Made by a program: the position numbers and the translations under genes. 35,877 nucleotides of DNA from a virus, in IMG/VR virus record IMGVR_UViG_3300049893_001114, positions 1-35,877 of that record. One strand, 5' to 3'. The stretch's first letter is position 1; every line of letters starts with the position of its first letter. Shown in pieces: positions 13,943-35,877 of the stretch. The notes beneath the pieces are model-generated. The model did not search any database, was not told where the DNA came from, and saw only the letters and a list, made by a program, of their open reading frames with translations.

Positions 13943-13963
13943 TCTTTACACTTCTTTACACTT
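13943..13963 (-). repeat. dispersed 21-base repeat, copy 1
   Basis: Minus-strand AAGTGTAAAGAAGTGTAAAGA spans the stop codon of NinG. A copy differing at one base lies at 20324-20344 and a weaker one at 17504-17524. All three lie at or over gene ends in the same orientation. Confidence 0.55.
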
Positions 13964-14500
13964 CAGCTCCTTAATCTTGCTCTGATAATGTTTTGCTATC
14001 TCTGCGTAATCCGCTGCACTTCGCTTAACTACGGTTGACAGTTCAAGCGCCTCAACTCGCTCAATTCCTATTTTTGCGATAAGTCCAGCGCGGTACATTA
14101 CTAGGTTTCCGCTTAGGTAGTTATTACAGGCTACGCACTGCTTATGGCAGTTGTCTTCGTTAAATCTTAAATCAGCTCTGGCCCCTACTGTTTTGTAGTG
14201 CCCTGCGTGCCATTGGCCGCCCCAGTCTTTTGGCTTATCGCAACTAATACACCCTAAATCCCTGTCGCGTAACCGTATAAACTCGTTAAAAGCCTTCTGC
14301 GCCTTCGATTTTTGGAAGCTGGCGTCATTGGATAGCATCTCATCCTTTCTGGCCTTGTGCGCACGTTTAGCAAGTTTTTCAGACTGTTTAACCGCTAATG
14401 CAATGGCGCAACTTGGCGAGCAAGCCTTTTGTAAAATCCTAACCGGTGTAAATTCCTTTTTGCACTCCCTGCATTTTTTTAATTTTACTGCTCTTTGCAT
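13946..14500 (-). CDS. ninG: NinG-like recombination protein
   Basis: 184 aa. The Cys arrangement at the start (CREC at 10-13 and CSPSC at 27-31) and the HNH-like second half (CISCDKP, WHAGHY, then CHKQCVACN) are those of lambda NinG/Rap, a nuclease that cuts recombination intermediates. A charged linker rich in Lys, Ala and Arg separates them. An AAGG site lies before the ATG at 14500. It follows cassette array 1 in the operon and is downstream of NinB, as in lambda except for the inserted cassettes. Confidence 0.9.
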   Translation of the reverse strand: MQRAVKLKKCRECKKEFTPVRILQKACSPSCAIALAVKQSEKLAKRAHKARKDEMLSNDASFQKSKAQKAFNEFIRLRDRDLGCISCDKPKDWGGQWHAGHYKTVGARADLRFNEDNCHKQCVACNNYLSGNLVMYRAGLIAKIGIERVEALELSTVVKRSAADYAEIAKHYQSKIKELKCKEV

Positions 14501-14539
14501 ACTAGCCTTAAATAAAAAGTTAAGTTATTGATTTTGTTA

Positions 14540-14602
14540 GAAACACGAAAAAATAAAAACCGGAAATATACGGTCTTCACTGTATATTCCTCTGTTATAT
14601 TT
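14540..14602 (-). terminator. 63-bp array-end element E1 (terminator-like hairpin)
   Basis: Read on the minus strand, GGAATATAC pairs with GTATATTTCC (one bulge), followed by GGTTTTTATTTTTT, a good intrinsic terminator. The element is shared with 22775-22837: both are exactly 63 bp, with 22 of 23 bases matching at the left, 23 of 23 at the right, and a divergent 17-base centre that still pairs with the conserved right arm. It begins at the stop codon of the last cassette gene of array 1. Read on the plus strand it also looks like an imperfect attC ending in GTTATAT. Confidence 0.8.
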
Positions 14603-14789
14603 GTTTTCTCAAGAAGTGGTCATCCTGAATAATTTCAAATATTTCATGGCTCTCCGCACCATGCTTTTTTGCTAAAGTGATTAACTTCCTGCACATATCA
14701 TTAAGTGCGAAGTTGGTAGCGGTTTTACTTTCTAAATCTTTCCTAAGCCCCACTATCACAGCTTTGTCTCTAGCAATTTTGTCTTTCAT
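14595..14789 (-). CDS. 64-aa helical cassette protein (array 1, third cassette)
   Basis: MKDKIARDKAVIVGLRKDLE and on to a C-terminal EIIQDDHFLRKQI: charged and helical with a possible coiled coil. The ATG at 14789 has GGGGTGG about eight bases upstream; a longer reading from 14894 would translate the attC and is rejected. The TAA stop lies inside ATATAAC, an R''-like core. The family is not recognised. A possible toxin, antitoxin or small regulator is only a guess from size and context. Confidence 0.72.
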   Translation of the reverse strand: MKDKIARDKAVIVGLRKDLESKTATNFALNDMCRKLITLAKKHGAESHEIFEIIQDDHFLRKQI

Positions 14790-14808
14790 TTTTAAAACCA
14801 CCCCAAAA

Positions 14809-14886
14809 ATATAACAAATCGTTGCAGCATCACTCCGCTGCGCTACGTTGGATGGGCTGCGCCCACCGCTGAACTCGGCGTTATGC
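14809..14886 (-). other. attC site 3 (family III)
   Basis: 78 bp. Minus strand: R'' GCATAAC, spacer GCCGA, L'' GTTCAGC, long loop, L' GCTGCAAC (extra C unpaired), spacer GATTT, R' GTTATAT. The L arms pair fully apart from the single extrahelical base, and the R cores TAAC/GTTA pair. The exonuclease stop codon TAA is in R''. Clearly related to site 4. Confidence 0.9.
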
Positions 14887-15324
14887 GGTCGCAATTGTGT
14901 AGCTTTTTGCTATCGCCTTTGCATCGAGCAAAGCATTGTGTGGAACTGAAGATTCTTTTGAAGTTATACCCCAATGCAAGTAAAAAGTTATATTTTGCAT
15001 TGCTGGGCATTCACCGCCACCAACTTCTATTAAGTCACAAAAATGCTTTATATCGGTAGGCCAATCTGCAATAACAGTTATATGCTCAAACATGGAAAAA
15101 ATTTCAGCAATTCTATTTGCTACTACTTTTTTATCTACATACACAAAAGGCGCACTGCAATGATGAAGCACAGGAATAACATTTTTAGCTACCCAGTCAT
15201 CTTGTGCGCAATCTTTAAAAATGGCGTAAATTTCTGGCGCAAGCCCTTCTACTTGAGGCACCATTGCAAAACTAATAAGCTCACCTTTAAAGCCGTCAAA
15301 CTCGCAATCTATAAAAAATTTCAT
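14881..15324 (-). CDS. DEDD-type 3'-5' exonuclease in a gene cassette
   Basis: 147 aa from the ATG at 15324; an upstream ATG lies too close to attC. The exonuclease residues are visible: Asp6 and Glu8 in FIDCEFDG, an Asp in VIADWPTD (about 90-97), and HNALLD (His129, Asp134), the DEDDh pattern. The short single-domain form resembles Rv2179c-type exoribonucleases. Likely substrates are RNA 3' ends or short oligonucleotides. It starts 12 bases after attC site 2 and ends in attC site 3, the normal compact cassette layout. A role in counter-defence or RNA turnover is inference. Confidence 0.82.
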   Translation of the reverse strand: MKFFIDCEFDGFKGELISFAMVPQVEGLAPEIYAIFKDCAQDDWVAKNVIPVLHHCSAPFVYVDKKVVANRIAEIFSMFEHITVIADWPTDIKHFCDLIEVGGGECPAMQNITFYLHWGITSKESSVPHNALLDAKAIAKSYTIATA

Positions 15325-15335
15325 GCTTAAACCTC

Positions 15336-15420
15336 GCATAACAAAGTTATCAAGCGGACGCTATCTAAGTCCGCGTATTTATCATTTGTGAAACGTGCGC
15401 CGCTTATAACGGCGTTATGA
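15336..15420 (-). other. attC site 2 (family II)
   Basis: 85 bp. Minus strand: R'' TCATAAC, spacer GCC, L'' GTTATAAGCGG, loop, L' CCGCTTGATAAC (one extra G), spacer TTT, R' GTTATGC. The L arms pair over 11 bp with a single extrahelical base and the GCC/TTT spacer is unpaired, the hallmarks of an IntI substrate. Site 6 has the same length and design. Confidence 0.93.
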
Positions 15421-15660
15421 CTTGGCGGTTGAATTAAATACTGCGCAAGCCCAAACAGCATAAGCTCCGTAAGCAATAAATAAGATTCCAAAAATCGGGT
15501 CGAGCCAATGCTCAAACCGTTCGCCAAAAATCAATTTTTCAACACTTGCCTCAATAATGTTAAAAAACACAAAAAATAAAATCACTACAAGAGTGCTTGT
15601 TACTGGATTACCTTTGCATGATGCAGCCAATGTCATTACTGAATTTTGCAGTTGTTCCAT
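15415..15660 (-). CDS. two-span membrane protein in a gene cassette
   Basis: 81 aa with hydrophobic stretches at about residues 20-40 (STLVVILFFVFFNIIEASVE) and 54-74 (PIFGILFIAYGAYAVWACAV), linked by a charged loop. A short N-terminal polar region carries a Cys. The ATG lies 26 bases after the R' core of attC site 1, and the stop TAA is inside the R'' core of site 2. The family is not recognised. Small membrane proteins are common integron cargo. Confidence 0.75.
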   Translation of the reverse strand: MEQLQNSVMTLAASCKGNPVTSTLVVILFFVFFNIIEASVEKLIFGERFEHWLDPIFGILFIAYGAYAVWACAVFNSTAKS

Positions 15661-15686
15661 AATTAGTTCTCGCTTCGTTTAATTGG

Positions 15687-15768
15687 TCATAACAAGGCGT
15701 AGCAGCATCACTACGCCTTCGGCTTCGTTCGACGCTATAGCGGGCGCGGCTGTACATTGGCGTTAAAC
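15687..15768 (-). other. attC site 1 (family I)
   Basis: 82 bp. Minus strand: R'' GTTTAAC, spacer GCCAAT, L'' GTACAGC, a loop with its own small hairpins, L' GCTGCTAC (extra C), spacer GCCTT, R' GTTATGA. The stop codon of the upstream phage gene lies in R''. Site 5 shares its arms and spacers. Confidence 0.9.
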
Positions 15769-16236
15769 CCCAACAATAACCGCCTCAAACTCACAATGAC
15801 TATACCGCCCTTTGTTTTTGTGGCCTTCCGGGATCGCGTCATTGCATTTTAAACACTCTCTAAGCTCGGACTCCATTGCGTCATTTAGTATTTGTGACTT
15901 TTTACCCTGTAGTGCGCACGTAAAAGTAAACTCAATCTCATCGACTTTTAAACCTCGCTTTTCAGTTTCGAAAACGACTCGCAGCGTTACTATATATGTA
16001 AACTCAGCGTTCATAATCCATTCGCTTGATGATGCCCATAGGTTTTGCACAATTATCCTCTGTGTCGGATTTTTGTGCGTAACATTTCCCGCGATTATTT
16101 CCGCATTGTTTTCAAACGGATTTTTATCAGTCCATGTAAGCGTTAGCCCTTTCAGTCCGCGTCTTGCGCGCTCCATGTAGGACGCAATTTTCTTTTTATG
16201 CCCGCTTCGCTGCCTGGGTTTTCGTAGTGCTGTCAT
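15763..16236 (-). CDS. hypothetical phage protein at the left border of array 1
   Basis: 157 aa, basic N-terminus (LRKPRQRSGHKKKIASYMER) then a mixed alpha/beta body with a CLKC pair near residue 126. The ATG overlaps the NinB stop by four bases and has a strong GGGAGG site, so it belongs to the phage operon rather than to a cassette. Its TAA stop is supplied by the R'' core of attC site 1, so the cassette insertion may have replaced or trimmed its true end. Function unknown. Confidence 0.72.
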   Translation of the reverse strand: MTALRKPRQRSGHKKKIASYMERARRGLKGLTLTWTDKNPFENNAEIIAGNVTHKNPTQRIIVQNLWASSSEWIMNAEFTYIVTLRVVFETEKRGLKVDEIEFTFTCALQGKKSQILNDAMESELRECLKCNDAIPEGHKNKGRYSHCEFEAVIVGV

Positions 16237-16742
16237 TGTGCCTCCCTGTAGCTCTCATACTCTTTAATCGCTGGCTCACTCCATTTCGTGCTCATCATTG
16301 CACCAGTGGAGTAAAGGAATTCAACAAAATCACGAGCTACCTTTTTACCCCATTCTTTAGTGCTTGGCCGAATGCTTATATTCTGCCCTGTGATTGGGTC
16401 TAGAAAATTACTAGGCGCTTTCGGTAGCTTCTCGCCAAGCTGCGCGTATTCGTTTGCGAACCACATTACAAGTAATGCTTTGCATTGCTCTGCGTCATAG
16501 TCTTTCATGGCTATGCGCCTGCCTGGCAGCGTTAAAACTCCAGTTTTGTTTATGTCGCCAATCATCGCATGAAACTTCTCGCGCTGGCCTTCGCTTTTAG
16601 GCTCTTCTTTTTGCGGCTCCTTTCCAGCGTTATCAACCGTAACGCGAACCGGCCCCGATTCTAACAGCTTGCATATTTGCCCATCGAGCGCATTAAAAGC
16701 GCGATTGATCTGCTCCTTCTGAGTTATTGTTAGGCTAGGCAT
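16233..16742 (-). CDS. ninB: NinB-like recombination protein
   Basis: 169 aa from the ATG at 16742 (MPSLTITQKEQINRAF), which matches the start of lambda NinB; an ATG 18 bases earlier is possible. Lambda NinB (Orf) binds single-stranded DNA and works with the annealing protein. Conserved features seen are a QREKFHAMIGDI helix, LPGRRIAMKDYDAE and the ending region SGAMMSTKWSEPAIKEYES. A longer mid-region than in lambda. It pairs functionally with the Rad52-like protein on the plus strand. Confidence 0.82.
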   Translation of the reverse strand: MPSLTITQKEQINRAFNALDGQICKLLESGPVRVTVDNAGKEPQKEEPKSEGQREKFHAMIGDINKTGVLTLPGRRIAMKDYDAEQCKALLVMWFANEYAQLGEKLPKAPSNFLDPITGQNISIRPSTKEWGKKVARDFVEFLYSTGAMMSTKWSEPAIKEYESYREAQ

Positions 16743-17047
16743 ATCCCGTTTTCCCTGCAAAATTCATCACGATATTTTACCACGTTGGCAAGTAACTTGC
16801 CGCTTTTGGTGTATCGGATATTTTTTAATTTGATCTCACATTTAAACCCAACTCCTACGCTTTTTGGAGTGATGTATTTGTATTTTTCCTTGTTAGTTTT
16901 GTGCTCTTCAATGTCTTTTTGAAACTGCACTTCATCTTGATACATTGAGTAAGGGTCGCGTGATATTTTCGGTGGATTTACAATTAATCCGCTGGCCTTT
17001 TTGTCTGCTTCTTTGGCTTTGGCTACTTTGATTCGCTTTTCAGCCAT
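16730..17047 (-). CDS. hypothetical basic protein
   Basis: 105 aa, Lys/Glu-rich start (KRIKVAKAKEADKKASG) and a basic beta-like second half (FKCEIKLKNIRYTKSGK). It overlaps the NinB start by 13 bases and begins two bases after the previous stop. No clear ribosome site. Not recognised; possibly nucleic-acid binding from charge alone. Confidence 0.62.
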   Translation of the reverse strand: MAEKRIKVAKAKEADKKASGLIVNPPKISRDPYSMYQDEVQFQKDIEEHKTNKEKYKYITPKSVGVGFKCEIKLKNIRYTKSGKLLANVVKYRDEFCRENGICLA

Positions 17048-17969: not shown

Positions 17970-18030
17970 ACTCATAACCCCGATATAGTTTTATGCCTAG
18001 TTTGTCGATCTTTGCTAAAAGCCAAATCAT
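17926..18030 (-). CDS. 34-aa peptide after the PAPS-reductase-like gene
   Basis: MIWLLAKIDKLGIKLYRGYE and an acidic end. Its ATG overlaps the stop of the upstream gene by four bases (ATGA), which supports translation by coupling. It overlaps the 57-aa gene. Confidence 0.45.
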   Translation of the reverse strand: MIWLLAKIDKLGIKLYRGYEYDDTSRDWAKGEGV

Positions 18031-19232
18031 ATTATTCCAGCCTCTTTGCGCTGCTCTGATTTTTGCTTCATATATTTTTCATACGCTGCGCTTTTTGTTG
18101 GGCTGAACCCAAGACCTTTACACCAAAAATCATTGCGTAGTATTGTTTTGCATACCTTTCGCCAAGATGGAACTTTCCCTTTGTTTTCTAGCTTTACTTC
18201 AACCTTATCAGGGATACCGTTTTCATATCCTCTCGTTGACCACCAACGCAAATAAACAAAGATTTTATTCTTGTAATGCTCTGCTGTTCTTTTTGGCATT
18301 GTTTCAAGCAAATGCTTGGCGAATGACTCAAATGTATGCCCCTCTGGAATTGATATAGAGTAGTTACCCATTACCGCACCCTTCTCATTTGCGTATAGCG
18401 CTCCAGTGTTTGCACCTGCAACCCTAAGCGCCAACTTAGCCCACATTTCAGGCTCGCAAACTTGATAAAGCCACAATCCCTTTCTAGCTTCATCGCCAAA
18501 AGGCTCGCAAATTCGCATTTGAGATAGCTTCATACCTGACTGAAGCATTAGGTCATATAGCTTGTTGTATTCAAGATCATTTTTCCCAAGATAAACCCAA
18601 ATATCTTTTGTTTTCCAGTCATAAATAGGATACACATTCCACGCATTTTCTATTACATTTGTTGTCCATGGCTTTCCATCAAACATGGGTTTGTTTCTGG
18701 CTATAGTCCTAAACCGATTTAACGATTCATCCGCACGTATTCCTACAAACTGAGCCAATGGCTTACCTTGTGCGTACCATTTAGCAAAACATGGAACAAA
18801 CTCCTCAAAAGGCATTCCATAAAAGTAAAAGTCAAAAAACGACTGATCTGTTATCGACCATTTTGATGGTTTGCGAACCCACAAATCCTTTTTGTTTTCA
18901 TCCCATGCCGTCCATTCTGGCTCAAATTGACTTGTTGCATTCCATGTCTTCATTGGCAATGAAACCCAAAATGGCTCAATATAGTCAGAATACTTTTCAA
19001 ACATTGCCTCAACAAACGAAATTGTTGAGCGCATTTGACATTCCCAATCTATAAACAAGCATCCAACTTTTACCTTACGCTTCATTGCCTCTTGCATAAC
19101 CAGATGAAGCATAACTGTAGAATCTTTTCCGCCAGAAAATGATATGCAAATTCGCTCAAAGTTATCGAACACATATTCAATTCGCTCTTTTGCTGCCGAA
19201 AGAACATCAATACCAATATAATTTTTAGGCAT
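18027..19232 (-). CDS. IbrA/YbdN-like PAPS-reductase-family (PP-loop) protein
   Basis: 401 aa, the size of E. coli YbdN/IbrA. The PP-loop SGGKDS is at 33-38, so it probably activates a substrate with ATP. The C-terminal half carries the family hallmark MRICEPFGDEARKGLWLYQV. Family members are paired with a ParB-like partner (IbrB/YbdM), as here. IbrA/IbrB are known as regulators of immunoglobulin-binding proteins in E. coli ECOR-9; the chemistry is unknown. The same fold occurs in DndC, which acts in DNA phosphorothioation, so a sulfur-related DNA or RNA modification is possible but unproven. A GGAG site precedes the ATG. Confidence 0.85.
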   Translation of the reverse strand: MPKNYIGIDVLSAAKERIEYVFDNFERICISFSGGKDSTVMLHLVMQEAMKRKVKVGCLFIDWECQMRSTISFVEAMFEKYSDYIEPFWVSLPMKTWNATSQFEPEWTAWDENKKDLWVRKPSKWSITDQSFFDFYFYGMPFEEFVPCFAKWYAQGKPLAQFVGIRADESLNRFRTIARNKPMFDGKPWTTNVIENAWNVYPIYDWKTKDIWVYLGKNDLEYNKLYDLMLQSGMKLSQMRICEPFGDEARKGLWLYQVCEPEMWAKLALRVAGANTGALYANEKGAVMGNYSISIPEGHTFESFAKHLLETMPKRTAEHYKNKIFVYLRWWSTRGYENGIPDKVEVKLENKGKVPSWRKVCKTILRNDFWCKGLGFSPTKSAAYEKYMKQKSEQRKEAGII

Positions 19233-21057: not shown

Positions 21058-21809
21058 CAGAAGTTCCTCGCGCGTTCTAGGTCAAAAGTGTAGGCGTTGC
21101 GTTCGGCTTGTTTCTCTGCTGCTGTTTTGTATTGGCCCTGTGCAGAGTTTTGCATCCATTGAACCTCAAAACCTCGCCATCCACGGGTAACGCATTCAGC
21201 TATGCATTGGTCAACTGAGTAGCCAAAGGTTGCCGCCTTGCGTAGCTCAACAGCAAAGCGGTTGATAACAGTTTGGCTAACATTGGCTTTGAGCCTTTTG
21301 CGCATAGATAGCCAGTCTGCCATAGTCTGATCGCTTGGCATTGAAGGCCAGCAAGAGTAATCGAGTTGAACTTTTTTAGGCGCAGCCGTTTGAGCCGTAG
21401 GCGATAATGATTCTATGACGGTTCTATTTGACGGTTCTATGACGGTTCTGGGTGCAGCTCCTGCACTGGGGGGGTGCAGCTCCTGCACTGGGGGGGGTGC
21501 AGCTCCTGCACTACCTAGTGAATCTCCTGCACTACCTACCAACATATTTTTATTGATTTTGTACATGTTTGAAGTTTGTTCGCCAGCCTTGAATCTGCTT
21601 TCAACTGAAAGAAATCCGCTATCAACTAACGCGCCAATATGATTGATTACGCTTCTACGAGACATTTCACACTGTGATGCGATAGTTGCAAATGAAGGCC
21701 AGCACTCCCCATCATCGTTTGCGTTGTCGCATAGCTTCAAAAGGACTAGCTTTCTAAGTGGGTTATTTACCCTTGCATCAAATGCAAAAGTTAGGTATTT
21801 GATGCTCAT
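21057..21809 (-). CDS. lambda O-like replication initiator containing the origin
   Basis: 250 aa. The N-terminal winged helix-turn-helix (DGECWPSFATIASQCEMSRR, residues 33-52) binds origin DNA. A low-complexity linker (about 93-140, rich in Ala, Gly and Pro) covers the iterons at 21451-21536. The C-terminal domain would bind the P-like loader. As in lambda, the origin is inside the initiator gene. The start overlaps the stop of the HNH-like gene by four bases (ATGA). Confidence 0.83.
   Translation of the reverse strand: MSIKYLTFAFDARVNNPLRKLVLLKLCDNANDDGECWPSFATIASQCEMSRRSVINHIGALVDSGFLSVESRFKAGEQTSNMYKINKNMLVGSAGDSLGSAGAAPPPVQELHPPSAGAAPRTVIEPSNRTVIESLSPTAQTAAPKKVQLDYSCWPSMPSDQTMADWLSMRKRLKANVSQTVINRFAVELRKAATFGYSVDQCIAECVTRGWRGFEVQWMQNSAQGQYKTAAEKQAERNAYTFDLERARNF
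21451..21536. other. replication origin: iterons inside the O-like gene
   Basis: Three perfect 17-base repeats GGTGCAGCTCCTGCACT begin at 21451, 21473 and 21496, with a fourth half-copy at 21524-21536. The period of 22-23 bases places them on one face of the helix. Each holds the palindrome GTGCAG-ctc-CTGCAC. Because the period is not a multiple of three, the repeats encode different residues in each copy, so the conservation is at DNA level. A GACGGTTCT direct repeat (three copies) follows at about 21418-21449. Confidence 0.88.
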
Positions 21810-22426
21810 TGTTGTTTATCCACTGACAAGGTAAATTTTTCTGCTATTCTTCTAAGCGCTTCTGAAACACGGCTATTATTTTCTTCGATTGAAAGCTGTA
21901 TTGAAATTTCTGCTTTTCTCTTTTTCCATGCATTCGCAGCATCAGAAACACAACTAAAAACACCTAAATGCTCTTGTTTCTTTGAAAAAGGATTTCTACA
22001 TCTTGCTATTAGAACTCCCTTACTTTTATGAAACATAACACCTATTGGATATTTACCCCTTTTCGAACCGCAATCAGTTAAAAAGCTATTGACTCTATGA
22101 GAAACAAAGCAGCACTTTTCAGGGGAATAAATATTATTACCATTATCAATAATATCCTTATCGAGCTGCTTTCCTTGCCAATCTTGAGATTCCATCCATT
22201 TTTTAAAATTGGAAAAAGTTAGCCAATCATGGCATACAATGCAGTCACTATATGTAGGATTTTTTTTATGAAAATTTGATGAATAACACCTCTGAAGCAT
22301 GTTCACCCATGTTCTGTAATATGGGCAAACCCATAACCTTATTTTTTTATTATTTTTTTGCTCTGTTATTGATGTTTTATAATTTGAATCGTTAATTCCG
22401 ATCCCATACACATTTTTTTTATGCAT
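21806..22426 (-). CDS. homing-endonuclease-like (HNH/AP2-type) protein
   Basis: 206 aa. The pattern CPYYRTWVNMLQRCYS, CIVCHDWLTFSNFKKWM and LDKDIIDNGNNIYSPEKCCF is that of a family common in phages, often described as HNH or AP2-linked homing-type nucleases. A C-terminal helix carries basic residues. The gene is visibly richer in A and T than its neighbours, which suggests recent arrival. Its start lies right at the end of a long hairpin with a T-run, so its translation is likely tied to that structure. Nuclease activity is not shown. Confidence 0.6.
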   Translation of the reverse strand: MHKKNVYGIGINDSNYKTSITEQKNNKKIRLWVCPYYRTWVNMLQRCYSSNFHKKNPTYSDCIVCHDWLTFSNFKKWMESQDWQGKQLDKDIIDNGNNIYSPEKCCFVSHRVNSFLTDCGSKRGKYPIGVMFHKSKGVLIARCRNPFSKKQEHLGVFSCVSDAANAWKKRKAEISIQLSIEENNSRVSEALRRIAEKFTLSVDKQQ

Positions 22427-22531
22427 AAAAAAACGCCTTTAGAGTAGCCCTTGGAGACAGATACCGTGACCAGGTACTGGCAAAAAGGATTAGCCATTGT
22501 TTACGGTAAACAAGAGCCACTCTAAAAGCGT
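22427..22531 (-). terminator. long hairpin with T-run directly before the HNH-like gene
   Basis: On the minus strand the arm at 22531-22511 pairs with the arm at 22453-22433 over 21 bp with three G-U pairs and no bulge, closing a branched loop, and is followed by seven T up to the ATG at 22426. It therefore acts as a possible terminator or attenuator. The likely ribosome site (AAAGG) is in the 3' arm, so folding would also hide the start of translation. Confidence 0.75.
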
Positions 22532-22614
22532 CTAAAGTCTACCTAGTTCTTTTCCCGCCCTCTGTCACAAAGGCACCTTTCGGCTAAGGGTAGCGCGTTC
22601 GTTTCCTACTAGCG
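22427..22614 (-). ncRNA. leader RNA of the replication operon or small phage RNA
   Basis: About 190 nt from the promoter at 22622-22649 to the T-run. Inside are further hairpins: GTTTA-ccg-TAAAC, CAGTACC with GGTATCTG, AAAGG-tg-CCTTT, and a GCGC pair near the 5' end. There is no ORF of note. It could be a terminated small RNA or a switch controlling the HNH, O and P genes. It matches no riboswitch class I can recall. Confidence 0.6.
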
Positions 22615-22621
22615 CACATTA

Positions 22622-22649
22622 ATTATACCATCATGTTCAAAAAACTCAA
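22622..22649 (-). promoter_or_regulatory. sigma-70-type promoter for the leader RNA / replication operon
   Basis: -35 TTGAGT (22649-22644), 16-base spacer, perfect -10 TATAAT (22627-22622). Transcription would start near 22615 and run into the structured leader. Confidence 0.72.
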
Positions 22650-22654
22650 TTATA

Positions 22655-22735
22655 TGTACACAAACCAACCATATGTACATTTGACAAAATGGCGTTTATA
22701 TGGCCTAAGCGTCCTTAGTCCTTGGACTGTGTACA
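22655..22735. promoter_or_regulatory. TGTACA sites upstream of the promoter
   Basis: The palindromic hexamer TGTACA occurs at 22655-22660, 22674-22679 (19 bases apart, same face of the helix) and 22730-22735. The first lies just upstream of the -35 box. A further palindrome AGTCC-tt-GGACT is at 22717-22728. They look like sites for a phage or host regulator. The rest of the stretch 22650-22775 holds no gene. Confidence 0.5.
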
Positions 22736-22774
22736 TGTTTTCATAAATAAAAACCTAAGTGGTTGATATTTAAG

Positions 22775-22837
22775 GAAACGCGAAAAAATAAAAACCGTGA
22801 TATGACAGCGTGCGCTGTATATTCCTCTGTTATATTT
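22775..22837 (-). terminator. 63-bp array-end element E2 (terminator-like hairpin)
   Basis: Second copy of the element at 14540-14602. On the minus strand ATAT-ACAGCG pairs with CGCTGT-c-ATAT, then CACGGTTTTTATTTTTT follows. Flanks are shared with E1; the centre differs but keeps a stem with the conserved arm. Starts at the stop codon of the last cassette gene of array 2. Confidence 0.8.
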
Positions 22838-23018
22838 CAAATACCTTGAAGCATTTACTACATCGGTAAACATGAAAATGCGATGGAATTCCGTCACCGC
22901 CCTTACTGCTATGGTAATCATGAACATCAAAGAACTTATCGCTAAACCAGCAAATTGATCCATCTTTTACATGACCAAACCCAAATAAACATTTAATTGC
23001 CCACCATGCTTTTTTCAT
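22830..23018 (-). CDS. 62-aa Cys-containing cassette protein (array 2, third cassette)
   Basis: MKKAWWAIKCLFGFGHVKDG, ending HVYRCSKCFKVFEI. A CxxC pair near the end, another Cys pair earlier and several His could hold zinc. The ATG at 23018 lies 13 bases after the R' core of attC site 6; a longer reading would translate the attC. The stop TAA is in an ATATAAC core, as in the last cassette of array 1. Confidence 0.7.
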   Translation of the reverse strand: MKKAWWAIKCLFGFGHVKDGSICWFSDKFFDVHDYHSSKGGDGIPSHFHVYRCSKCFKVFEI

Positions 23019-23030
23019 ATCAAAATCCAA

Positions 23031-23115
23031 ATATAACAATGTTATGAAACGGATGCGGCATAACACCGTGTTTTAAATTACTACCTACTGCGCACCGTTT
23101 ATAACGGCGTTAGCT
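23031..23115 (-). other. attC site 6 (family II)
   Basis: 85 bp. Minus strand: R'' AGCTAAC, spacer GCC, L'' GTTATAAACGG, loop, L' CCGTTTCATAAC (extra C), spacer ATT, R' GTTATAT. L arms pair over 11 bp with one extrahelical base. Same length and design as site 2, with compensating changes in the L arms (AAGCGG/CCGCTT there, AAACGG/CCGTTT here). Confidence 0.93.
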
Positions 23116-23310
23116 GTTGTCGCATTTACAAGAAGTAACTGTGACTTGCCAGCACCCTTCAAATTTAGGCTGAATGGTGCATCCGTCCGCAATCCATTGG
23201 CCTAGAATTTTTCCAGCTTCTTTTCGCTCAGTATTTTGGTAATCCATTGCCCCAACAATCAAACCGCATTGGCAGATTGCAATAAAGCCTTTAGGTTGTA
23301 ATTTTGCCAT
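23110..23310 (-). CDS. 66-aa Cys-rich cassette protein (array 2, second cassette)
   Basis: MAKLQPKGFIAICQCGLIVG, then a helix ERKEAGKILGQWIADGCTI and an ending SCKCDNS. The CxC pairs at both ends suggest one zinc site. The ATG at 23310 is chosen with GGAG upstream; a GTG four codons earlier is possible. The stop TAA is in the R'' core of attC site 6. It resembles short proteins found in phages and plasmids, function unknown. Confidence 0.72.
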   Translation of the reverse strand: MAKLQPKGFIAICQCGLIVGAMDYQNTERKEAGKILGQWIADGCTIQPKFEGCWQVTVTSCKCDNS

Positions 23311-23335
23311 TTTGTTTTTCACTCCGTTAAGTTTC

Positions 23336-23391
23336 AGCTAACAAGGCGTACCATCCGACAGCTACGCTGCGGCTGTACATTGGCGTTACAT
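23336..23391 (-). other. attC site 5 (family I)
   Basis: 56 bp, the shortest site. Minus strand: R'' ATGTAAC, spacer GCCAAT, arm GTACAGCCG, inner hairpin CAGC-gta-GCTG, arm CGGATGGTAC (one extra G), spacer GCCTT, R' GTTAGCT. Nearly the whole site pairs, as in short attC sites of classical resistance cassettes. Confidence 0.9.
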
Positions 23392-23586
23392 TCACTCGCT
23401 AGGTATGTTTTCTTTAGTCAAAGAAACAAACTTCTTATTTGCAATCCACTCATCTTGAGTAAATCCGCACTTAGTACATTCTCTTCGCTGCATAACTTTT
23501 TCTTGCTTACACGGAATAGAGTAAAAATAACTCAAGCTAGTTGTTTCGTATCTCTCCCATTTGCTCCACTTATGAAAAAAGCACAT
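23392..23586 (-). CDS. 64-aa zinc-ribbon-like cassette protein (array 2, first cassette)
   Basis: MCFFHKWSKWERYETTSLSY, then RRECTKCGFTQDEW. The CxxC pair with an earlier Cys and His suggests a small zinc ribbon. GAGGA lies eight bases before the ATG at 23586. Its stop TGA is the only one in the arrays that falls just outside the attC core. The HKW-KW start is frequent in short phage and cassette proteins of unknown role. Confidence 0.74.
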   Translation of the reverse strand: MCFFHKWSKWERYETTSLSYFYSIPCKQEKVMQRRECTKCGFTQDEWIANKKFVSLTKENIPSE

Positions 23587-23609
23587 TTTTAAATCCTCAT
23601 ATTTTGTAA

Positions 23610-23684
23610 ATGTAACGAGTCGTTGCAGCACACTACGCTGCGCTTCGCTGGATGCTTTCGGCACCGCTGAACTAGGCGTTATGC
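23610..23684 (-). other. attC site 4 (family III)
   Basis: 75 bp. Minus strand: R'' GCATAAC, spacer GCCTA, L'' GTTCAGC, loop, L' GCTGCAAC (extra C), spacer GACTC, R' GTTACAT. Same arms as site 3. The stop codon of the phage gene at 23679 lies in R''. Confidence 0.9.
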
Positions 23685-23921
23685 CGTCATTTCTTCGTAA
23701 TACTTCCGCACAATTCTGCACTCGATATGGTCTTGATTAGACTGCGTATCTAGCCAGTATTTCACATCATCCAGGCTATTTTTTCGCCACCACGGTTCAG
23801 AGTAAATTCGCTGCCGAGCCCGAACCATAGTCACAAAAACTGCCAGATCATCCTCGCTGCAGTCGTCTAAAAAATCATTCGCAGCGCTCCAAAACTTCGA
23901 CCGATCCGTTTTCTTTTTCAT
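23679..23921 (-). CDS. 80-aa phage protein at the border of array 2
   Basis: MKKKTDRSKFWSAANDFLDD and an acidic, aromatic, helical body with no recognised domain. It overlaps the upstream gene by 47 bases, so it belongs to the phage operon. Its stop TAA is part of attC site 4, suggesting that insertion of the cassettes changed its end. Confidence 0.68.
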   Translation of the reverse strand: MKKKTDRSKFWSAANDFLDDCSEDDLAVFVTMVRARQRIYSEPWWRKNSLDDVKYWLDTQSNQDHIECRIVRKYYEEMTA

Positions 23922-24063
23922 TCTCGTTTTCCAAGTGGGTTAAAAGGTTTTCAATCATCAATGCCAGGCTTTCACGATTGTAAGAGGCTATTTTGAAAGT
24001 CTCGCTTTCTTTATCGCCAAGCCATACGTTTTCGTCTAGCCATTTAAGTGCTTTTTCTTTCAT
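23875..24063 (-). CDS. 62-aa acidic early protein
   Basis: MKEKALKWLDENVWLGDKES, helical and acidic, with many Glu and Asn near the end. Starts with a four-base ATGA overlap with the upstream gene. Not recognised. Confidence 0.65.
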   Translation of the reverse strand: MKEKALKWLDENVWLGDKESETFKIASYNRESLALMIENLLTHLENENEKENGSVEVLERCE

Positions 24064-34845: not shown

Positions 34846-35877
34846 CGAATGCGCCTTATGCCGTTGGTCACTAGGACTGCTGTTGAGTTTGTGTTGTTTT
34901 CGATATACGCCTGAGTGTAGTCATTGACGTTTAAATTTAACTGCCACGGAATAACGAATCGTGACGGGCTTACGTTGCTAATCTGCGCGGTTACTTTTGT
35001 GCTAGGCAAAATAGTGCCGGTTAAAGCTAGATAAACCGATACAGTTACAGGCGTTCCCGTAGTTGCTTGCACATAAAAAACATCATCAGTCGGGAATGTA
35101 ATTCGCTTCTCGCTGAGGCTTGTTAGTTTTCCGCTGCCGTTTGTGCTGAATTTAGATAGCCGCTCGGTGGCCCATGTTGAACTATTGATTAGTGTCGGAG
35201 TATTGACCGCGCTAAATGTCGTATTTGTTGCATTACCGTTGAAATATATCAGCGCATCCGAAATCGTATCTTCTAAGCCGCCATTGTCAGAAGCCTCTAC
35301 GCGAATATCCGATATAGTAATTCCACCGGCTAGCGGGGCCATTGCTGAGGCGCCAAGGCCACATGACTCAATAGTTAAAATGTTATTCGCTGAAATGTTG
35401 GCGCTGTTTGCCAATGCGTAAAGAAATGATGAACCGCTGGGCCCGCTGGGCTCAATGTCTCGAAATTCCCCACCGCTTACAACCGCATTTGAAATATCGA
35501 ATAGTTTATGAGTAACCGAAGTCGCAACCGTGAAAACTTTTGTGGCCGAAAGGATACGAATATCGTTATTAAATACGAACCCCTGCCCCGTTATCGAAGC
35601 GATTAGGACGTTACTCCAGTTAAAGTTCGTGAAGTTGGTGCCAGTCCCTGTAAACGAACCCAAATGCTTAACCGCGTATATAGATGAATCTTGAACGACA
35701 CTAATACCAGCACCAGAGAAGTCTATAAGCGTTCCATTGGGGCATTCAAAACCTAATTGATTGATCGCCCAGCTAGCATTGACAGAGGTAAACATCACAC
35801 CAGTCCCCGTGTAAATCAATGCCGAATAAAACGAGTTTTTGGACGTTATGTAAACGCCATTTTGCACAATGAACCGC
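34842..35877 (-). CDS. virion/tail protein, C-terminal part (continues at the left end of the window)
   Basis: Remaining residues of the 427-aa protein whose start is at 404. With the 156-base overlap removed, 248 bases at the left end plus 1036 here give exactly 428 codons, so the join keeps the frame. This part is a long series of beta strands (for example TNFTNFNWSNVLIASITGQG), Asn/Thr/Ser-rich, which suggests a solenoid or fibre, and ends basic (NGIRRIR). Reading from the internal GTG at 35867 would be an artefact of the contig edge. Confidence 0.85.
   Translation of the reverse strand, partial: RFIVQNGVYITSKNSFYSALIYTGTGVMFTSVNASWAINQLGFECPNGTLIDFSGAGISVVQDSSIYAVKHLGSFTGTGTNFTNFNWSNVLIASITGQGFVFNNDIRILSATKVFTVATSVTHKLFDISNAVVSGGEFRDIEPSGPSGSSFLYALANSANISANNILTIESCGLGASAMAPLAGGITISDIRVEASDNGGLEDTISDALIYFNGNATNTTFSAVNTPTLINSSTWATERLSKFSTNGSGKLTSLSEKRITFPTDDVFYVQATTGTPVTVSVYLALTGTILPSTKVTAQISNVSPSRFVIPWQLNLNVNDYTQAYIENNTNSTAVLVTNGIRRIR
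35722..35877. repeat. terminal overlap, right copy
   Basis: Matches 1-156 with three differences, each silent in the tail gene (Gly, Pro and Gly codons). Subtracting it gives a circle of 35,721 bp. Confidence 0.93.

Follow-up and report, generated by a model that had tools for sequence, protein, structure and literature searches.

Integron cassette arrays at an attI-like head site and at operon-end stop codons in a phage genome

Arrays of integron cassettes that lack an integrase were probably captured by the phage described here at an attI-like site that it carries itself and that abuts the stop codon at the end of an operon, the reversed cassettes presumably being read with that operon. Until now, attC arrays in phages have counted as strays from the integrons of bacteria. 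The DNA analysed, referred to below as the window, is the whole of a virus record (IMG/VR IMGVR_UViG_3300049893_001114; 35877 bases). It encodes a portal, a major head protein, NinB, NinG and an O-like replication protein, and contains two cassette arrays, at 14595–15762 and 22830–23678 (Table 1). The array junctions, the site shared between arrays, the orientation of the cassettes and the intact C-terminus of the gene at 15763–16236 are shown here.

Two further features of the window are recorded here. Its ends (1–156 and 35722–35877) form a 156-nt direct repeat, 98% identical, which is either a terminal repeat or the sign that a circular genome was sequenced beyond its starting point. A unit of about 21 nt with GTGCAGCTCCTGCACT, present in four tandem copies within the O-like replication gene (21450–21538), possibly represents origin iterons.

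Table 1. Features of the two cassette arrays of the window and of the adjoining genes (a slash marks the crossover).
Feature	Position	Strand	Remarks
NinG/Rap-like gene, downstream of array 1	13946–14500	−	Directly follows the 15763–16236 homologue in array-free L009
attI-like head site (repeat copy 1), ending ...CTGTATATTCCTCTG	14509–14594	+	Crossover 14594/14595; repeat, motif in eight arrays, junction
Cassette 1a	14595–14880	−	ORF 14595–14789 (64 aa, no family); TAA stop at crossover
attC of cassette 1a, AACAAATCG...CTCGGCG/TTA	14809–14886	+	Canonical direction +
Cassette 1b	14881–15414	−	ORF 14881–15324, RNase H/exonuclease-like (phrog_2259); TAA stop at crossover
attC of cassette 1b	15336–15420	+	Canonical direction +
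Cassette 1c	15415–15762	−	ORF 15415–15660 (81 aa); TAA stop at crossover
attC closing array 1	15687–15768	+	Crossover 15762/15763
Phage operon gene bordering array 1	15763–16236	−	Native C-terminus (homologues); TAA is right half of crossover box
NinB/Orf-like gene, upstream in operon of 15763–16236	16233–16760	−	phrog_72
attI-like head site (repeat copy 2)	22744–22829	+	Crossover 22829/22830
Cassette 2a	22830–23109	−	ORF 22830–23018; TAA stop at crossover
attC of cassette 2a	23031–23115	+	Canonical direction +
Cassette 2b	23110–23385	−	ORF 23110–23322; TAA stop at crossover
Short attC of cassette 2b	23336–23391	+	Canonical direction +
Cassette 2c	23386–23678	−	ORF 23392–23586; TGA stop 6 nt before core TAA (exception)
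attC closing array 2	23610–23684	+	Crossover 23678/23679
Phage operon gene bordering array 2	23679–23921	−	TAA stop at crossover; without findable homologue

Array junctions and the ends of the bordering genes

Each window array comprises three attC sites in one direction, with cores, L boxes and G/TTA junctions, as a CALIN does. The direction was judged by chromosomal arrays and by Shewanella phage M16-3, in which it is fixed by intI and attI and an attC of the form TAACAAG...GCG/TTA follows each ORF. By this standard the canonical attC (AACAA...GCG/TTA) lies on the + strand of the window and all of the window cassette ORFs lie on the − strand; therefore, their terminal TAA is the crossover box read from the other strand. 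The first-pass annotation had named this core R''; set against M16-3 and the chromosomal arrays, the TAA instead complements the R' crossover box. In five of the six window attC sites an extra base, as judged by eye, is present in the box beside AACAA (L'' in attC nomenclature). Minimum-energy folds close the R and L boxes in one or two of the six sites, and their single-strand folds are mostly no better than those of shuffled sequences (z from −0.3 to −1.9).

The TAA of an NNTAAC pattern ends seven of the eight genes that lie at attC cores or array ends, as had been noted earlier. The − strand TAA stops fall inside NNTAAC at 14595, 14881, 15415, 15763, 22830, 23110 and 23679, and the eighth gene (23392–23586) stops at TGA, TGTAAC following 6 nt later. 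If the reading frame were random (1/3), at least seven of eight stops would fall in the core TAA with a probability of about 0.003. The earlier statement that these stops are embedded in attC cores needs amending for those at 14595 and 22830, which lie at the junction with the head site TAACAGAGGAATATACAG, and stands for the others.

Both bordering genes belong to the phage operon, as proposed, by overlap with their upstream neighbours (15763–16236 with 16233–16760, and 23679–23921 with 23875–24063). They do mark the insertion points: both right junctions read GGCG/TTA, whose TTA complements the stop codon of the gene (GGCG/TTAAACC at 15762/15763 and GGCG/TTATGCC at 23678/23679). Wherever an array adjoins a phage operon gene, in this and other phages (6/6), the TAA of that gene lies at the cut.

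The suggestion that the bordering genes may be missing their original ends is not supported for 15763–16236 when its C-terminus is compared with array-free homologues. The homologue in contig L009 (G148), which was reached through a NinG query of viral contigs, supplies the very case named beforehand as refuting that suggestion: its identity is 49% as far as residue 157 and it terminates in ...VVGV-TAA (...VIVGV-TAA in the window); in L009 a NinB-like gene, this homologue and then NinG follow directly, with no array. Further homologues were found in G146, G145 and G147 (33, 29 and 22% identity), with the stop codons TGA, TAA and TAG, respectively; the 30 nt displayed at their ends contain no attC core. 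All four end within one residue of the window protein, at the same stop position. Because array-free homologues end at the same place, the stop position of 15763–16236 is native; to judge by this alignment, its C-terminus is intact and not visibly truncated. For 23679–23921, searches of viral contigs, phages, the other phage records and 143 genomes gave no homologue, and searches of phages and viral contigs with the two bordering proteins, one cassette protein and the head site brought up no close relative.

The view first taken, that the bordering genes are captured cassettes or truncated genes with a stop borrowed from an attC, is very improbable on these data. The TAA of the bordering gene does sit in the core, and the outermost unit of one array in another phage (L031b) is indeed a further cassette, with a decayed attC, but the operon overlap of the bordering genes and the four array-free homologues of 15763–16236 with the same end speak against it.

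The head site shared among phages

Both window arrays begin at one 94-bp repeat that ends in CTGTATATTCCTCTG/TT, its copies being 78% identical over 94 nt. Read on the − strand, the copy at 14509–14594 is a hairpin plus a T run. The same kind of attI-like head site opens eight arrays in five phages. An attC-class pattern matched two viral contigs, L031 and L032, and a single place in genome contigs, where a Cellvibrionaceae MAG has a prophage-like stretch (L043); the arrays of all three start with such a head site. Judging from its translations, the L043 stretch may be P2-like. A motif scan returned 28 viral stretches, three of which have an attC array directly downstream, namely L031, L032 and the newly found L066. 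L031 holds two arrays. A second array is also present in the record of L066 (G147), where a further head site, together with a cassette and an attC of its own, lies near the end of the record (L130, near base 425) and the array runs off it. Six arrays have a phage operon gene as their right border.

Immediately ahead of the cut, the arrays align as ATATT-(2–4 nt)-CTG/TTA behind a dyad, and the sequences upstream of the head site are unrelated among arrays, except between the two window copies. Of nine dyad positions, nine pair in L031 and L066, eight in L043 and six in L032; the 25 viral motif matches without arrays pair at four to six, and no empty head site was found among them. When the dyad is slid out of register the pairings fall from 85% to 29–47%, and its covariation is not significant against column shuffles (94 of 500). 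The head site may also resemble dif.

Outside the viral stretches, the motif occurred in two of 144 genomes of L043's family, two of 390 of its order and one of 369 of its class, these samples overlapping; the matches were the L043 prophage itself each time, plus two chance hits without attC. At the chromosomal integrons sampled the head site was absent.

These observations bear on two other accounts of the arrays. They might be pieces of chromosomal integrons that entered through illegitimate or homologous recombination, the phage having no site dedicated to their capture. The available text of Qi et al. (2023; PMC9892861) explains phage arrays in this way, citing GTTRRRY-like repeats at the borders, and the 94-bp repeat could serve homologous recombination between two loci of the window phage. 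We nevertheless consider this unlikely, given the precise G/TT ends at a stop codon in 6/6 arrays, the one head site in five phages, an ORF orientation opposite to that of chromosomal arrays, the lack of any cassette in common with the chromosomal arrays fetched and the confinement of the attC pattern in genome contigs to one prophage-like place. Slightly less likely still is chance insertion at generic attG-type targets, in which the survivors would be those at TAA/C and the motif an incidental terminator-like hairpin. Insertion of this type into genomes is established (Loot et al., 2024, as presented in PMC11023631 and PMC12901181), G/TT at gene ends would be tolerated as the place where insertion does least harm, and downstream of the stop the motif can fold into a hairpin, which a T run accompanies in the window copies. 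However, a fixed sequence is not expected of a generic target, the motif extends to the cut (CTG/TTA) in all eight arrays while the flanks are unrelated, and most head-site copies outside the window have no T run. Capture at a dedicated, phage-borne site is the reading that we retain.

PAPS reductase-like proteins are encoded by the window operon gene 18027–19232 and by the first array cassette of L032 (4191–4949; phrog_424). A non-coding stretch beside array 2 (22423–22535) resembles, by eye, positions 1–110 of the related phage L031, which lie beside L031 array 1, and reads ACGCCTTT...GACAGATACCGT...CTGGCAAAAAGGA...GCCATTGTTT.ACGGTAAA...AAGCGTC; Rfam gave no match for window 22300–22900, and the stretch, which looks conserved, is a possible structured RNA.

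Reversed cassettes and the source of the recombinase

All 25 cassette ORFs of the eight arrays lie on the strand opposite to their attC, which is not the ORF direction of a complete integron. The cassette TAA is exactly at the cut in 19 of the 25 (P of about 2e-5 for a random frame), and the other six stop 6–34 nt before it. A length rule applied to the 25 phage cassettes, with attC sites located by hand-set patterns and hand-set junctions, classed 19 as inverted, none as forward and six as unclear, three of the last because the R'' finder clipped the ORF. Automated calling on five phage sequences gave 14 intervals (eight inverted, five unclear and one forward, which was outside any array). 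The automated rule gave 113 forward, nine inverted and 15 unclear among 137 intervals of the chromosomal controls, and 12, two and one among 15 intervals of M16-3. The excess of inversion in phage over chromosomal cassettes (Fisher, 4e-17) is descriptive, as cassettes within an array are not independent; counted per array it is 8/8. Intended as a second orientation control, Pseudoalteromonas phage H101 (PH101 of Qi et al.) yielded no array with the detector used and was left out of the comparison.

At the limits used, no cassette was common to different phages or to phages and the chromosomal arrays fetched. GGAGT occurs up to 25 nt before the start codon in nine of the 25 phage cassettes, frequently in the form ACGGAGTRA, a hint that the cassettes have a leader in common. 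One L031 cassette gene matched a Vibrio phage.

The window, the one record searched in this respect (0/1), has no integron integrase TIGR02249, as in a CALIN and unlike a complete integron, and PF00589 recombinases were absent from four of the five phage records searched, the window among them. Since both are missing from the window, and PF00589 from four of five records, the recombinase is probably the host's. Integron integrases occur in 117 of 144 genomes of L043's family, the Cellvibrionaceae, which is the known host family for prophage L043 only. That this family's IntI recognizes the head site is a guess, because the site differs from the chromosomal attI: in 20 intI upstream regions fetched from the family, most attI end like TAATAATATTG/TT. 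A chromosomal attI transplanted into the phage was rejected as its origin, the head site differing from attI in the 20 regions fetched. A motif-like CTGTATATGCAAACAG near intI in L072 and L073 was set aside because it looks like a LexA box.

Alternatively, the arrays could be made by a recombinase of the phages' own that PF00589 missed. The head site is indeed not a chromosomal attI and was unseen at chromosomal integrons, but no window protein matched all of the other array-bearing phages, matches to window proteins being few in G147 and lacking in L043; this alternative is improbable.

A model of capture and its relation to known systems

Under the capture model preferred here, a phage operon would carry an attI-like site at its end, where the site overlaps the final gene's stop codon. 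The + strand of the empty site would consist of a dyad (ATATAC.G...CTGTATATT) followed by CCTCTG/TTA, the TTA complementing that gene's TAA; from the gene side, without an array, it would read gene-TAACAG(N)GGAATATACAG. Integron-type recombination, most likely by a host integron integrase acting in trans, would cut G/TT and insert cassettes, placing the array antisense to the phage gene. Because the cut lies just beyond the stop, the gene would remain whole and its stop native after insertion. The cassettes retained would be those with the ORF inverted relative to their own attC, so that they can be expressed as additional members of the phage operon, every ORF ending in a TAA made by the next G/TTA box. 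We infer recombination by IntI, the order in which these steps took place, cassette expression with the phage operon and any benefit to the phage.

More tentatively, and with about as much reason for doubt as for belief or a little more, unrelated tailed phages may share a dedicated cassette port that uses the host integrase and loads a phage-specific pool of reverse-facing cassettes, the port being attI-like, distinct from the chromosomal attI seen and located on operon-end stop codons. If true, phages would be regular users of the integron system with a cassette pool of their own, and would possess a gene-swapping platform needing no gene of its own. The head site is a concrete and testable candidate capture site, and its position on a stop codon would explain how a tightly packed operon takes up cassettes without damage to its genes.

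No other work on phage attC arrays of this form was found in the open-access full-text literature. The nearest is that of Qi et al. (2023; PMC9892861), the available text of which reports CALINs, that is attC arrays without an integrase, in phage genomes, including those of virulent phages, recombination of some phage attC sites with attI1 under IntI1 and attC sites in divergent directions in P12002L. The window arrays resemble these CALINs in being integrase-less attC arrays in a phage; in contrast, that text describes no head site common to phages, no systematic inversion of ORFs with respect to attC and no overlap of crossovers with phage stop codons. Shewanella phage M16-3 (MZ568829), like the window, carries attI-headed integron arrays, and a CALIN too, in a phage genome, but its attI is of the Shewanella type, an integrase is present and the ORFs follow attC. 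The chromosomal integrons of L043's family share with the window the attC form AACAA...GCG/TTA, the G/TT junctions and a dyad upstream of the cut, whereas their attI end in TAATAATATTG/TT or similar, intI is adjacent and the ORFs follow attC. Finally, the attG secondary sites (Loot et al., 2024), as far as the accounts available describe them, likewise receive cassettes away from attI, whereas the arrays analysed here use one conserved target sequence in several phages.
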